64,000 nt of DNA from a bacterium 1XD42-54 (GTDB taxonomy: Bacteria > Bacillota > Clostridia > Lachnospirales > Lachnospiraceae): assembly GCA_003612585.1 (NCBI GenBank), contig RAZH01000005.1:124001-188000 (forward strand), given 5' to 3'. Of this stretch, positions 26,837-47,543 are shown in pieces (the stretch's first letter is position 1; each line of letters starts with the position of its first letter). A program made the position numbers and the translations under genes. The notes beneath the pieces are model-generated. The model was not told the DNA's origin and searched no databases. It saw only the letters and a list, made by a program, of their open reading frames with translations.

Positions 26837-27219
26837 GTAATTGTTCCTCCATTTTCTTATTGTCTCTAATTGGGGCAGTCATAGCCGCCCAGCCACCGAA
26901 GTGACCTTTCCATCTCATTAAGCTGTGAGTGCGATCCACGTACACACTTCCGCGCGTTCCGTAAGGAATGTGCACACTCTTGCATGACATGCTCATTTTG
27001 CGCCAGCGGTATTTGCACAAAATCGTGTACTGCCAAATCCTGAGCTGGTATTAAAAGCAATATCGCAACGAAATAAAATCCGGACTATCTATATAAAAGA
27101 GTCATATTCTCATTTATTCCATCGTTATATTGATTTATGACTGTGATCCTTCTTCCAGAAAAGATTCTAATATCCTATCACAGAAAAATTTCTCACTGTC
27201 ATTCCGCCGTTTTGTGTGA
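26837..27219 (-). other. Long structured spacer between rpmJ and rpsM
   Basis: No gene. Visible pairings: GTACAC (26940-26945) / GTGTAC (27025-27030) closing a domain, TTCCgtaaGGAA near 26957, and ATTTTGCGC / GCACAAAAT around 26995-27022. Outer CCAGC near 26890 may pair with GCTGG near 27045. Bases 27060-27219 are AT-rich with no clear structure. Confidence 0.45.
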
Positions 27220-39211: not shown

Positions 39212-39281
39212 GCCTTTTTCCTCCTTACTTAGATTTTCGGAGAAGGCAGAACGCCTTCTCTGTTTTCAGTATACAAGTCCA

Positions 39282-39436
39282 GTCATGCAGAAAAACAGGG
39301 AGACAGGCTCGGCAAATTTATTTGCCGGAGACTGTATAACTGTTTTGACAGCTGGGCGGGACGCCCAGTGAGTCGCAGACAGGAGCTGCAAAGCAGCGGA
39401 TAGCCTGCGTAGCAGGCGGTCTGCGACCTGCATGAC
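39282..39436 (-). ncRNA. Multi-branched intercistronic RNA structure, copy A (rpsH-rplF spacer)
   Basis: An outer stem GTCATGCAG (39282-39290) / CTGCATGAC (39428-39436) encloses three arms. Arm 1 is nested: AAAACAG/CTGTTTT, ACAG/CTGT, CGGCAAA/TTTGCCG (39292-39346). Arm 2: CTGGGC/GCCCAG (39352-39368). Arm 3: GTCGCAGAC/GTCTGCGAC (39372-39427) holding GCTGCaaaGCAGC and GCCTGCgtaGCAGGC. Copy B at 43806-43955 has the same plan with different bases. An extra hairpin AGAAGGC/GCCTTCT sits at 39241-39259. Function unknown. Confidence 0.65.
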
Positions 39437-39461
39437 GGAATTACTAACTATTACGAGGTGT

Positions 39462-39649
39462 CTTCCTTCGACTAAGCTCTTGCTGCGCCTGTCGACTTGC
39501 ACTCGCTAAGGTTCAGGAAGGGCCTCTTGCGGTAACACCATGGTCACTAACCTCGCCGCCTCATTTTACTCGGCGCTCGCTAAGTGTCCAGGTGGGCTTT
39601 CATACTAAACTCAAACTCGCTTTCGCTCGTTTTCGCTAAGTATTCAATG
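39462..39649 (-). repeat. Three CGCTAAG-type short repeats in the rpsH-rplF spacer
   Basis: Units at about 39462-39520, 39539-39598 and 39601-39649. On the transcribed strand each begins CTTAGCGA and ends with GCTTAGT, GTTAGTG or TTTAGT after about 25-35 bases. The first is about 75% identical over 59 bases to the unit at 40159-40217. They fill the space between copy A and rpsH. Confidence 0.55.
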
Positions 39650-39663
39650 CCAGTGTTCAATGC

Positions 39664-40065
39664 CTACCAAACGAAAGCAAGAACCTCGCCGCCAACCTGA
39701 AGTTTTCTGGCCTCTTTGTCTGTGATAACGCCCTGATTTGTAGAAAGGATCGCTACACCCAGACCACCAAGTACTCTCGGAAGATTCTCTTTGCCTGCGT
39801 ATACGCGAAGACCCGGCTTAGAGATTCTCTTAATACCTGTAATGATTTTTTCGTTCTTGTCAGCACCATATTTCAGAGTGATATGAATTGTCTTTACAAC
39901 TCCATCCTCGATCAGGTCATATTTTTTGATGTATCCTTCGTCCAGAAGAATGTTTGCGATTGCAAGTTTCATTTTGGATGACGGTACATCTACGGTATCG
40001 TGTTTTGCAGTATTTGCGTTACGGATTCTTGTAAGCATATCTGCAATCGGATCGCTCATTGTCAT
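39664..40065 (-). CDS. rpsH: 30S ribosomal protein S8
   Basis: 133 residues; [20 protein letters not shown] and the C-terminal [20 protein letters not shown]. Start after AGGAGGAAACTATC. Between rpsN and rplF. Confidence 0.97.
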
Positions 40066-40158
40066 GATAGTTTCCTCCTGTTTTTCAGACTTTTCATGTC
40101 ATGTTGTTGTTTTGGTTTGTTATATATCTTGGCTGCCCACTATCTAAAGAAGGGGTAT

Positions 40159-40267
40159 GTTCCTTCAACTAAACTCATGCTGCGCTTACCAGCTTGCATT
40201 CGTTAAGGCTCAGGAACGACCTCGCGCTAAGTTCATTCTTCGCCTTCGGCTCGAATTCACTAAGCTG
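40159..40267 (-). repeat. Two CGCTAAG-type repeats in the rpsN-rpsH spacer
   Basis: Unit 40159-40217 matches the unit at 39462-39520 (TTCCTTC-ACTAA-CTC-TGCTGCGC blocks shared, ending TAAGG-TCAGGAA). A shorter unit follows at about 40224-40267 (GCGCTAAGTTC ... CACTAAGCTG). They run almost up to the rpsN stop. Confidence 0.55.
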
Positions 40268-40274
40268 CTTTCGG

Positions 40275-40460
40275 TCACCAGCTTGCTTTCTTTACTCCCG
40301 GGATCTGTCCCTTGTATGCCAGTTCACGGAAGCATACACGGCAGATGCCATATTTTCTCAGAACGGAATGCGGACGTCCGCAGATTCTGCAGCGTGTATA
40401 TGCTCTCGTGGAGAACTTCGGTGTGCGCTGCTGTTTGATTTTCATTGCTGTCTTTGCCAT
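40275..40460 (-). CDS. rpsN: 30S ribosomal protein S14, zinc-binding type
   Basis: 61 residues with two zinc cysteine pairs ([20 protein letters not shown]) and the end [10 protein letters not shown]. The short zinc form is standard in Clostridia. Confidence 0.97.
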
Positions 40461-40488
40461 GAAATTTTCCTCCTACTATGCTGTCTTT

Positions 40489-41028
40489 TTATTTCGTAAA
40501 CGGCATATTGAATAATCTCAACAATTCACGGGCTTCTTCATCTGTCTTGGCAGTTGTAACGAAGATTACATCCATACCTCTGACTTTATCGATCTTATCG
40601 TACTCGATTTCCGGGAAGATCAGCTGCTCTTTGATACCAAGAGCATAGTTTCCTCTACCGTCGAATGCGTTCGGGTTTACACCTCTGAAGTCACGTACAC
40701 GCGGCAGTGCAAGATTGATCAGGCGGTCTACGAAATCATACATCTTCTCACCACGAAGTGTAGTTTTGCAACCAATTGCCATACCTTCTCTGATCTTGAA
40801 GTTTGCAACGGAATTTTTAGCCTTTGTAAGAACTGCCTTCTGGCCGGTAATTGTTTCCATATCCTTTACAGCAGATTCCAGAACCTTCGCATTGTCCTTG
40901 GCTTCACCAACACCCATGTTGATTACAACCTTGTCAAGCTTCGGAACTTCCATAATATTTTTATATCCGAATTTTTTGATCATAGCATCTACGATCTCAT
41001 TTTGATAAATCTCTTTCAGTCTGCTCAA
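40489..41028 (-). CDS. rplE: 50S ribosomal protein L5
   Basis: 179 residues; [20 protein letters not shown] at the start, [18 protein letters not shown] near the end. The most credible start is the TTG at 41028, nine bases after GGAGG. The TTG at 41037 directly abuts the Shine-Dalgarno and is unlikely. Confidence 0.95.
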
Positions 41029-41050
41029 CTTGTGCAACCTCCTCTCCTAC

Positions 41051-41350
41051 TTAGTTAATCACTTCGCCGGTAGATTTTGCTACGCGGACTTTTTTATCTC
41101 CATCCATCTTAAAACCAACTCTTGTTGCCTTACCTTTATGAAGGTACATAACATTGGATGCATCGATATAGGACTCTTTGTTCACGATGCCGCCCTGCTG
41201 GTTTGCTGCTGACGGTTTTGCATGCTTTGTTACCATGCCGATTCCCTCAACGAGTACCTTACCGTCCTTTACAGCCAGAACCTTGCCATCTTTACCTTTA
41301 TCTTTGCCTGCGATTACCTTAACTGTATCGCCTGTCTTGATCTTATTCAT
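41051..41350 (-). CDS. rplX: 50S ribosomal protein L24
   Basis: 99 residues; KOW motif [20 protein letters not shown] and the short C-terminal [19 protein letters not shown]. Between rplN and rplE. Confidence 0.97.
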
Positions 41351-41364
41351 TCTTTTGGCCCTCC

Positions 41365-41733
41365 TTATAATACTTCCGGAGCCAAAGAAACGATCTTCAT
41401 GAACTTCTTATCACGAAGCTCTCTGGCTACTGGTCCAAAAATACGTGTTCCTCTCGGATTCAGGTCATCCTTGATAATAACTGCTGCATTTTCATCAAAT
41501 CTGATATAAGAACCGTCTTTACGGCGAACACCATTTACTGTACGTACTACAACAGCCTTTACAACGTCACCCTTTTTAACAACACCACCTGGTGTTGCAT
41601 CTTTAACAGAAGCAACGATAATATCGCCAATACTTGCATATCTTCTTGTAGAACCACCCATAACACGGATGCAGAGAAGCTCTTTCGCACCAGTATTATC
41701 AGCAACTCTCAGTCTGGTTTCCTGCTGTACCAT
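41365..41733 (-). CDS. rplN: 50S ribosomal protein L14
   Basis: 122 residues; [20 protein letters not shown] and the end [19 protein letters not shown] are family hallmarks. Between rpsQ and rplX. Confidence 0.97.
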
Positions 41734-41751
41734 GCTGATATACCTCCTATA

Positions 41752-42006
41752 CTATTTAACCTTTTCAACGATTTCAACAAGTCTCCATCTCTTATCTTTT
41801 GACAGCGGTCTTGTCTCCATAACTTTTACTGTATCTCCGATATTGCATTCGTTGTTCTCGTCATGAGCTTTCAGCTTGTAAGTTCTCTTTACGATTTTGT
41901 TGTAAAGCGGATGTCTTACGTGGTCTTCTACTGCAACAACGATTGTTTTGTCCATTTTGTCACTGACAACCTTACCCGTACGGGTTTTTCTAAGATTTCT
42001 TTCCAC
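41752..42006 (-). CDS. rpsQ: 30S ribosomal protein S17
   Basis: 84 residues ([20 protein letters not shown]). The start is the GTG at 42006, eight bases after AAAGGAG; the in-frame TTG at 42027 would add seven non-family residues encoded by the Shine-Dalgarno itself. Confidence 0.95.
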
Positions 42007-42042
42007 GGAAAATTCTCCTTTCTTCAATCTGAACTGCGCCGA

Positions 42043-42246
42043 TTAAGCGTTTGCTTTTTCTGTGATAACGGTCTGAATTCTGGCGATGTTCTTGCGAACC
42101 TCTTTGATCCTGCTCGTGTTATCCAGCTGATTCGTTGCATTCTGGAATCTCAGATTGAAAAGTTCCTTCTTAGCAGCTACTAATTCTTCATTTAATTCTG
42201 CAGCTGATTTGTTCTTTAAATCTTCCACATACTTATTAATTTTCAC
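42043..42246 (-). CDS. rpmC: 50S ribosomal protein L29
   Basis: 67 residues ([36 protein letters not shown]). Start GTG at 42246 is preferred to GTG 42255 on spacing from AAGGCGG. It overlaps the rplP stop by 11 bases. Confidence 0.95.
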
Positions 42247-42673
42247 TGTTATCACCGCCTTCTAAGTCTGCACGAGAAACGATTTTACATTTGCAAGGTA
42301 ACTTGTGCATGGCAAGACGCAATGCCTCACGAGCAACTTCCTCAGGAACTCCTGCAAGCTCGAACATTACGCGGCCTGGTTTTACAACTGCTACCCAGTA
42401 CTCCAGCGTTCCTTTTCCGGAACCCATTCGTGTTTCTGCCGGTTTTGCTGTTACTGGTTTATCCGGGAAAATCTTGATCCATACCTTACCACCACGCTTG
42501 ATGTAACGTGTCATAGCGATACGGGCTGCCTCAATCTGGTTTGATCTGATCCAGCACGGCTCAGTAGCCACAAGACCAAAATCACCGTAGGAGATTGTAT
42601 TTCCTCTTAACGCTTTTCCTTTCATGGAACCGCGGAACTGTTTACGACGTTTTACTCTCTTTGGCATTAACAT
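42236..42673 (-). CDS. rplP: 50S ribosomal protein L16
   Basis: 145 residues; [20 protein letters not shown] and [20 protein letters not shown]. The C-terminal LEGGDNSEN is an acidic extension that overlaps rpmC. Confidence 0.97.
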
Positions 42674-42675
42674 AA

Positions 42676-43326
42676 TTATTTATCGCTCCCTTCTTTTTTA
42701 GATGGAAGTACTTCGCCCTTGTAGATCCAAACCTTTACGCCAACTTTGCCGTAGGTTGTATCTGCCTCAGCGAATCCATAGTCAATATCTGCTCTCAGTG
42801 TCTGAAGCGGAATAGTTCCGTCACTGTAGAACTCAGTACGTGCCATATCGGCTCCGCCAAGACGTCCGGATGCGCAGGTCTTGATACCGAGTGCGCCGGC
42901 TTTCATCGTTCTGCTCATGGTAGACTTCATGGCACGACGGAAGGAAACACGGTTCTCAAGCTGTGCTGCAATATTCTCTGCAACGAGCTGAGCATCCTTA
43001 TCCGGTCTCTTGATCTCTTTGATATCAACAATAAGCTTTTTATCAACAAGCTTCTGAAGCTCTGCTTTCAATTTTTCGATCTCAGCTCCACCCTTACCGA
43101 TTACAACGCCCGGTTTTGCTGTGTGGATGATAACTTTGATGCGATCAGATGCTCTTTCGATTTCAATCTTGGAAACACCTGCACTGTATAATCTCTTTTT
43201 CAGGAATTTTCTGATTTCGTGGTCCTGTACCAGGCAGTCAGCGAAATCACCTTCTGCATACCATCTGGAATCCCAGTCTTTAATAACGCCAACTCTAAGA
43301 CCGTGTGGATTTACTTTCTGTCCCAT
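42676..43326 (-). CDS. rpsC: 30S ribosomal protein S3
   Basis: 216 residues; [22 protein letters not shown]-domain [17 protein letters not shown] and C-terminal [19 protein letters not shown]. Between rplV and rplP. Confidence 0.97.
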
Positions 43327-43337
43327 GATTGTCCTCC

Positions 43338-43724
43338 TTATTTCTCGTTAAGCACGATTGTGATATGGCTCATTCTCTTTTCGATCCTGTAAGCCCTGCC
43401 CTGTGCTCTCGGTCTTACTCGTTTCATTGTCGGTCCCTTGTTTGCGTAGCACTCTTCTACGTACAGGTTCTCGGCACTCATACCGTTGTTGTTTTCAGCG
43501 TTTGCAATTGCTGACTTTAACAGTTTTGCAATCAGTTCAGAAGCATATCTCGGATTGTAAGTAACAATACCAAGTGCTGACTGTACATCTTTACCTCTGA
43601 TCGCGTCTAAAACATAACATGCTTTCTGGACAGAAACACGAGCGTATGACAGCTTTGCTGACGGTCTCGTATCCTTCTGAGCATTTCTCTCTCTCTTAAT
43701 TTGGGATCTATGTCCTTTAGCCAT
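43338..43724 (-). CDS. rplV: 50S ribosomal protein L22
   Basis: 128 residues from ATG 43724 ([20 protein letters not shown]); the loop segment [20 protein letters not shown] lines the exit tunnel. The in-frame codon at 43766 is ignored because it lies in the structured spacer and the family starts at MAKGH. Separated from rpsS by 256 bases. Confidence 0.96.
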
Positions 43725-43805
43725 TGGATGTAGCCTCCTTCCATTCTCAGGGCTTTTGCCCCGCAACGCCCTCCCCGGGCGGACTGATTTTATTTCGAAA
43801 TTGAA

Positions 43806-43955
43806 GCAGCAGCAAAATGAAAAAACAGACTGTGCAAGCGCGCTTGCAAAAGGCTGTATTTTTCATTTTGAAGATGGGCAGAATGCCCATCTAAGCCACA
43901 GATGGTTGCTGCTATGCAGCATCCAGTCCCGCAGGGACGATCTGTGGCGTGCTGC
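43806..43955 (-). ncRNA. Multi-branched intercistronic RNA structure, copy B (rpsS-rplV spacer)
   Basis: An outer stem GCAGCA (43806-43811) / TGCTGC (43950-43955) encloses: arm 1, nested AAAATGAAAAA/TTTTTCATTTT (43814-43869), ACAG/CTGT, TGCAAGC/GCTTGCA; arm 2 AGATGGGC/GCCCATCT (43872-43892); arm 3 GCCACAGAT/ATCTGTGGC (43895-43948) holding GCTGCtatGCAGC and GTCCCgcaGGGAC. The helix order and the GCTGC-N3-GCAGC hairpin match copy A; the stem sequences differ but keep pairing. Confidence 0.65.
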
Positions 43956-43980
43956 ACTCTTTATTTTCTGGATTTTATCT

Positions 43981-47317: not shown

Positions 47318-47543
47318 AAAAAAAGTCGCCTCCTTTTCGCACTTTGTTTCAGTACGACAAGCGGTGACTGTACACTCTCCCGTGCGTGTCGCGAACTCAC
47401 ACGGTGCCCAAGCTTATACGGGCCATTAAAATTTTGTACAGTGACTTGTCGCCAGTTTTATAACTTGACATTCGCTCCACGGAAAACCTGCAGTCTCGCT
47501 GGCTGCAGCAACCTCACGCTTCTACGCTATCAAGGTCACAACG
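47318..47543 (-). promoter_or_regulatory. Structured S10-operon leader
   Basis: About 225-base leader. Transcribed strand: hairpin CTGCAG...CTGCAG near 47495-47515; a long-range two-part stem in which CGACAAG and CACTGTAC (near 47435-47450) pair with GTACAGT and CTTGTCG (near 47355-47375), enclosing GCCC...GGGC and CGTGT...ACACG hairpins. The position fits an autoregulatory leader of the L4 type, but identity with a known leader class is not shown. Confidence 0.6.

Follow-up and report, generated by a model that had tools for sequence, protein, structure and literature searches.

A structured miniature transposable element of Lachnospiraceae, with strand-symmetric covariation, in two spacers of the S10-spc operon

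The S10-spc operon of the bacterium 1XD42-54 (Lachnospiraceae), read here within a 64,000-nucleotide stretch of contig RAZH01000005.1 (positions 124,001 to 188,000; hereafter the window), carries in two of its spacers a pair of sequences, copy A and copy B, that belong to a real, family-wide structured miniature inverted-repeat transposable element (MITE). The two copies are probably old insertions of about 176 bp that were moved in trans and whose folded unit is kept strand-blind at the DNA level. The element family has defined ends and target duplications, is spread over many genera, occupies the site of copy A in four species and shows extreme covariation; what is new beyond an ordinary MITE is the strength and the strand symmetry of this covariation.

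Two copies of one branched fold

Copy A lies in the rpsH-rplF spacer and copy B in the rpsS-rplV spacer of the operon, which is on the minus strand. The adjoining genes (rplF, rpsH, rpsN, rplV and rpsS) are all on that strand, so that the transcript of either copy is the reverse complement of the letters as first read. Folding of both strands gives one branched fold common to A and B with differing stem sequences; the initial annotation had described two such multi-branched look-alikes, and every stem in its description is present in both copies. Fold energy lies at z -9.9 (A) and -7.9 (B) for the minus strand and at z -8.7 (A) and -9.1 (B) for the plus strand, and in all four cases each of the 200 shuffles lies higher. 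All listed pairs are Watson-Crick (52/52 in A, 57/57 in B), the arms having been chosen because they pair. The features below were obtained by folding, and the two whole copies in addition with the covariance models R1, built from A and B alone, and R2, built from 50 copies; no strand is assigned to the outer-stem arms.

39280..39438, minus strand: copy A of the structured MITE, rpsH-rplF spacer
39282..39290: A outer stem, one arm GTCATGCAG, partner 39428-39436
39428..39436: A outer stem, other arm CTGCATGAC, partner 39282-39290
39292..39346, minus strand: A long arm P4, with ACAG/CTGT at 39303-39306/39332-39335 and tip hairpin CGGCAAA/TTTGCCG
39352..39368, minus strand: A hairpin P3, CTGGGCG/CGCCCAG (the GGGC/GCCC hairpin)
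39372..39427, minus strand: A stem P2, 9 bp (39372-39380/39419-39427), enclosing two hairpins
39385-39397 and 39403-39417: the A hairpins inside P2, GCTGC-AAA-GCAGC and GCCTGC-GTA-GCAGGC
43802..43957, minus strand: copy B of the structured MITE, rpsS-rplV spacer
43807..43812: B outer stem, one arm GCAGCA, partner 43950-43955
43950..43955: B outer stem, other arm TGCTGC, partner 43807-43812
43895..43948, minus strand: B stem P2, GCCACAGAT/ATCTGTGGC, enclosing two small hairpins

Copy B follows the same helix plan as A, at 43807-43955. By homology with young copies elsewhere, the degenerate ends of copy A would extend about 9 nt beyond 39280..39438 on each side. Copy A scores 177.4 bits with R1 and 142.7 bits with R2, and copy B 162 and 124.2 bits respectively, each copy being itself part of R1. 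Pfam gives no match for the 78-aa open reading frame (ORF) lying over copy A. At gathering score Rfam gives nothing at either copy, and with E up to 10 just a micro-RNA model overlaps B, far under its gathering score; element copies in four other loci have no Rfam match. The initial statement that no named class matches thus agrees with both the Rfam and the literature search.

A dispersed element with transposon ends

Scanning with a two-sequence covariance model, as the initial annotation had proposed, found further copies with compensatory changes, with E 2.5e-33 for the top copy beyond the window genome. Within that genome (3.7 Mb) R1 recovers A, B and part of A on the opposite strand, and R2 recovers A and B with a third match at E 2.96; the family seems to be no longer moving there. 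Across 41 genomes R1 (E up to 1) matches in 23, all within the 25 genomes of the genus (window genome counted) and none among the 16 genomes that represent other families of the order; these 23 hold 358 matches, with up to 51 matches of the unit of ~158 nt per genome. A scan of the family (E up to 1e-3) finds matches in 63/397 genomes, in 56/334 genera, and a scan of the class (E up to 1e-5) in 5/391 genomes, all from the window's own family, with seven candidates scored per genome in both scans. Twenty-eight family loci were printed and folded, and the fold plan of the genus copies is also seen in several copies from other genera; other hairpin-rich elements may be among the weak matches of the family scan. 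A pattern search of named genomes, in the 80 of 120 stretches listed, returned metagenome-assembled genomes labelled Lachnospiraceae, Oscillospiraceae, Clostridiales, Eubacteriales or Ruminococcus; also among the matches listed is an isolate, Anaerostipes butyraticus JCM 17466, with a copy of 57.4 bits that has a like fold. Judging by the genome names in the scan, we infer that the carrier family is Lachnospiraceae.

Young copies begin with GTAAC, end with GTTAC and measure 176 bp; their terminal inverted repeats are imperfect, and the target duplications beside them are 8 bp long. The repeats are GTAACNRTTCAG and its inverse in young copies and are degenerate in A and B. At 60 places with flanks, in four copy-rich genomes, the GTAAC/GTTAC ends are sharp and accompanied by short direct repeats, and the terminal pattern GTNACNRTTCNGAAC occurs 114 times in genome G010 and 17 times in G013, with a reversed control of 0 in each. 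The duplication was tested on 147 flanked copies (175 model hits reduced to 151 unique ones, 148 of these with enough flank). The best of 400 offset pairs lies 9 nt outside both model ends, where the mean 8-mer identity is 3.43/8 compared with 2.46 ± 0.10 in 500 shuffles at that offset (maximum 2.78), and identity of the flanks drops beyond 8 positions. All eight positions match in 18 copies and seven in a further 7 (25/147), against 1 + 1 (2/147) in one shuffle. By eye, the target duplications look A+T-rich. An internal-deletion derivative of 64 bp (L072) has a perfect 8-bp duplication, as does each of two elements of 36 and 124 bp with element-type ends, and two copies with flanks in common (L067 and L170) are likely one insertion in two species. 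The proposal of a mobile structured repeat, one of three in the initial annotation beside ribosomal-protein binding and the setting of differential stability, is supported by the dispersal of the copies, by their inverted ends and by target duplications of 8 bp; being short (158-176 bp), dispersed and present in many copies, with terminal inverted repeats and a duplication of fixed length, the element is a MITE by the usual description.

An ORF of at least 200 codons spans 2 of the 124 copies with enough flank, which leaves room for insertions that broke genes. Among 119 classified copies, 32 lie in sense and 21 in antisense orientation between codirectional genes, 10 between convergent and 17 between divergent genes, the classes being ORF-based and crude, with an ORF overlapping the element in the remaining 39/119.

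Three further observations concern the surroundings and relatives of the element. A second repeat of ~50 bp, with the core CGGTCGG[TC]GCTAA or near to it and a hairpin of its own, is nested inside element copies (L057-L062, L064, L078, L079, L081, L083, L090, L093-L096, L098, L099, L102); by eye it lies in at least four parts of the element (the P3 loop, beside H1, the P4 arm and P2), as if it favoured palindromes. Other genera of the family carry a shorter sister type with a match of ~122-126 nt (L253, L254, L255, L257, L258, L261), in which the long arm and tip are similar to those of the element and the left lobe is smaller. A THF riboswitch (L017, 869-965) lies ~130 bp away from one element copy.

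Covariation without strand preference

In 50 diverse copies, drawn from 61 representatives of <90% identity (alignment A5), both partners vary at 52 of the 65 pairs. Shuffling lowers this to 28.0 ± 2.4 pairs and sliding the partners to 20-28, a comparison that leans towards the true rather than the slid pairing because the fold came from one of the 50 rows. Cells that pair make up 90.1% (78.1% in shuffles, 34-41% with slid partners), and 375 cells are changed on both sides against 114 in shuffles. The covariation that the initial annotation had noted between two copies is thus beyond chance.

Covariation is usually read as strong evidence of a functional RNA; here, with 52/65 pairs covarying, the wobble test disagrees. 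Under selection on one strand as RNA, G.U pairs are expected to accumulate and A.C pairs are not. The wobble count covers 53 of the 61 representatives (eight were dropped for a nested insert, truncation or poor alignment; L178, L139 and L031 are dropped in addition from A5), and its 2951 cells comprise 2698 Watson-Crick pairs, 47 G.U, 64 A.C and 142 others, G.U and A.C being without difference from equality (p 0.13). A wider count over 120 of 128 unnested copies gives 105 G.U and 97 A.C. Fourteen tRNAs from the same loci have in 330 cells 299 Watson-Crick pairs, 31 G.U and 0 A.C, a zero partly built in by a finder that scores pairs, and the G.U rates of element and tRNA differ with p 2e-12, the cells not being independent. 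Because G.U is no commoner than A.C, the one-strand RNA signature of G.U clearly above A.C is missing from the element stems, in the 53 as in the 120 copies. The pairing is real but strand-symmetric, and its upkeep would accordingly seem to act at the DNA level in a strand-symmetric manner; an RNA, as the initial annotation had called the two copies, is not supported as the form under selection, G.U and A.C pairs being of about equal rarity. The long arm also holds a coupled mismatch that reads CT in 25 of the 53 copies, TC in 10, TT in 0, CC in 3 and otherwise in 15 (p 6e-7 on the four pyrimidine classes, the copies being related).

Ribosomal-operon spacers across the genus

A search for rplV succeeded in 32 of 47 genomes of the genus, and of the 32 regions fetched the rpsH-rplF spacer was measurable in 24. 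This spacer holds the element in 4 of the 24 congeners (G000, G011, G017 and G019), each time just before a CTGAAAACAGAG block common to the spacers printed. The copies of the other carriers are 71-76% identical to A and their stems still pair. A U-A pair replacing C-G in P2 is found in 3 of the 54 representatives tabulated for this pair, namely the rpsH-rplF copies of G000, G017 and G019, and also in G011. Because the carriers have the same site and this rare pair, copy A is likely one insertion inherited by descent; on a protein tree of the 24 genomes one change suffices for it, with low support for the grouping (46/53). Copy B is present in 1 of 32 rpsS-rplV spacers, and the corresponding spacer of G011 has the right-hand flank of B with the element absent. 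A degenerate copy scoring 43.5 bits lies in the ribosomal region of G439.

Four spacers of the operon (rpsS-rplV, rpmC-rpsQ, rpsN-rpsH and rpsH-rplF) range in length between 22 and 452 bp across the 32 regions and look like landing sites for small repeats; the remaining spacers are near constant, with one exception, rpsQ-rplN of 103 bp in L310. In the window, more repeat-like, hairpin-rich spacer sequence flanks rpsH at 39441-39663 and 40066-40274.

Origin and upkeep of the element

In the explanation that we prefer, the element would be a small transposon without a transposase of its own, mobilised in trans by a transposase that gives 8-bp target duplications, presumably of the DDE cut-and-paste type and recognising the terminal repeats. 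Copy A would descend from a single insertion. A strand-blind process acting on DNA would preserve the whole unit as a branched palindrome, with the arms most likely re-matched through template switching or hairpin repair at replication, alongside selection favouring copies that remain harmless and mobile. In the window genome, A and B would now be carried as structured spacers of the S10-spc mRNA.

Several observations weigh against this account. Fewer than seven positions match at the duplication in 122/147 copies, and neither A nor B has a convincing 8-bp target duplication. No autonomous element with the same ends was found in the fetched loci (1.35 Mb, with overlaps) or in a set of four genomes assembled into 1-8 contigs; in these four, the shorter pattern used for the ends gave 74 matches in all, hardly more than the 56 of the reversed control. 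Many element carriers are draft metagenome assemblies. The 142 other mismatches among 2951 cells, partly alignment error, are to be accommodated, as is the coupled C.T mismatch, whose persistence template switching alone would not predict. The split by orientation has little power: 26 of the 32 sense copies give 24 G.U and 19 A.C, and 20 of the 21 antisense copies 22 and 16. Ends paired with a matching duplication up to 6 kb apart in the fetched loci belong just to short elements of up to 277 bp, and looser ends 0.5-5 kb apart gave nothing there; no other end class was recognised. Facing end pairs in the four genomes of 1-8 contigs span 65, 80 and 195 bp, with no others; in G010 pairs of GTNACNRTTCNGAAC were judged among the matches listed, so that a pair at transposon distance could escape notice.

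More tentatively, what is inherited in this mobile family of Lachnospiraceae may be not a sequence but a branched DNA shape, a cruciform or single strand recognised in transposition or repair, with stems replaced wholesale while pairing, junctions and the C.T mismatch are kept strand-symmetrically. It is rather unlikely that the transcript is the object of selection in either orientation, such that a MITE in an operon survives if its RNA is folded and so escapes Rho termination and nucleases, the host benefiting from insulation. The 53 copies between codirectional genes (32 sense, 21 antisense), the strong fold on both strands and the position of the window genome's sole survivors inside an operon would fit, whereas the wobble bias to be expected is unseen per orientation (in antisense copies an A.C would be G.U in the mRNA, yet A.C is not in excess in the counts given above, a small sample) and copies also sit at the 10 convergent and 17 divergent sites. 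We are similarly doubtful of a purely mutational upkeep, in which quasi-palindrome template switching matches the arms without any selection on shape. Two-sided changes with few one-sided intermediates, the near equality of G.U and A.C and the persistence of Watson-Crick stems in copies seemingly no longer moving speak for it, but correction alone should erode the architecture of the element, in which a branched frame bears four hairpin loops, the junctions are fixed and a C.T mismatch is coupled; all of this is kept in the genus, and the plan also in several copies of other genera.

Derivation from an IS66-family element is very unlikely. IS66 elements make 8-bp duplications and have ends in GTAA, and in duplication length and first four bases they agree with the element. 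A search of five genomes gave IS66 fragments in G000, one short match above the cut-off in G008 and one below it in G024, but none in the copy-rich G010 and G013, and in the window genome the sequence after the IS66 fragment L109 reads GACGCTTAC rather than CTGAACTGTTAC; on both counts IS66 was also rejected as the driver. An ISL3 transposase was matched in G192 and G091 and in none of G008, G010, G013 and G024; missing from four of the six genomes searched, and with no element-type end at the G192 loci (L342, L344), it was rejected as well. In viral contigs the terminal pattern has 9 matches, by our estimate about the number to be expected by chance, and a single copy used as blastn query had no match among plasmids and phages.

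A cis-acting RNA regulator binding a ribosomal protein at both spacers, as the initial annotation had suggested, is hardly credible: both window-genome copies are sense in one ribosomal operon and the fold at the A site is kept in four species, but the element is dispersed, with up to 51 matches per genome in every gene-orientation class, the same spacers lack it in 20/24 and 31/32 congeners, transposon ends and target duplications are present, and G.U is not preferred. A known ribosomal-protein leader or riboswitch at the copies was likewise rejected, as Rfam (gathering score) gives two leaders elsewhere in the window only.

47446-47532, minus strand: S10-Clostridia leader (Rfam)
26865-26910, minus strand: S4-Clostridia leader (Rfam)

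Comparison with known systems

The element serves as a warning that intergenic structured motifs may be transposons, and the spacers of a very conserved bacterial operon as landing sites for them. With its hundreds of natural replicates, the family could be used to tell selection on RNA from selection on DNA shape and from a correction of arms through template switching.

The bcr1-bcr3 repeats of the Bacillus cereus group are short, dispersed and MITE-like, lie in untranslated regions and intergenic parts of operons and are partly transcribed (PMC3446304), and in being short dispersed MITE-like repeats in such places they are like the element. They differ in belonging to another host group. 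In sequence and in target duplication, too, bcr1 presumably differs from the element. QMITE2 of Coxiella burnetii and the Correia/NEMIS repeats of Neisseria are described as small elements that have terminal inverted repeats and target duplications, of 7-9 bp in QMITE2, and whose transcripts fold strongly (PMC10969869, PMC2229807), and share small size, such repeats and duplications and a strong fold with the element. In contrast, such transcripts are described as long stem loops that arise from pairing of the two ends (PMC2229807), the element has four hairpin loops on a branched plan, and it is in the element that stems covary wholesale. The CIR repeats of Caulobacter and Brucella resemble it in being intergenic with a phylogenetically conserved multi-arm fold; they are described with two arms and a linker, in a passage that mentions no transposon ends (PMC2229807). 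In the literature covered, where subscription papers were poorly represented, such an element was not found described in Lachnospiraceae.

Integron attC sites are mobile DNA defined by a conserved folded shape with unpaired bases, not by sequence. No integron core sites were noticed in passing, in work that included no search aimed at integron sites. The element too is defined by its folded shape more than by its sequence, and differs from attC in that its ends and 8-bp duplications point to transposition.

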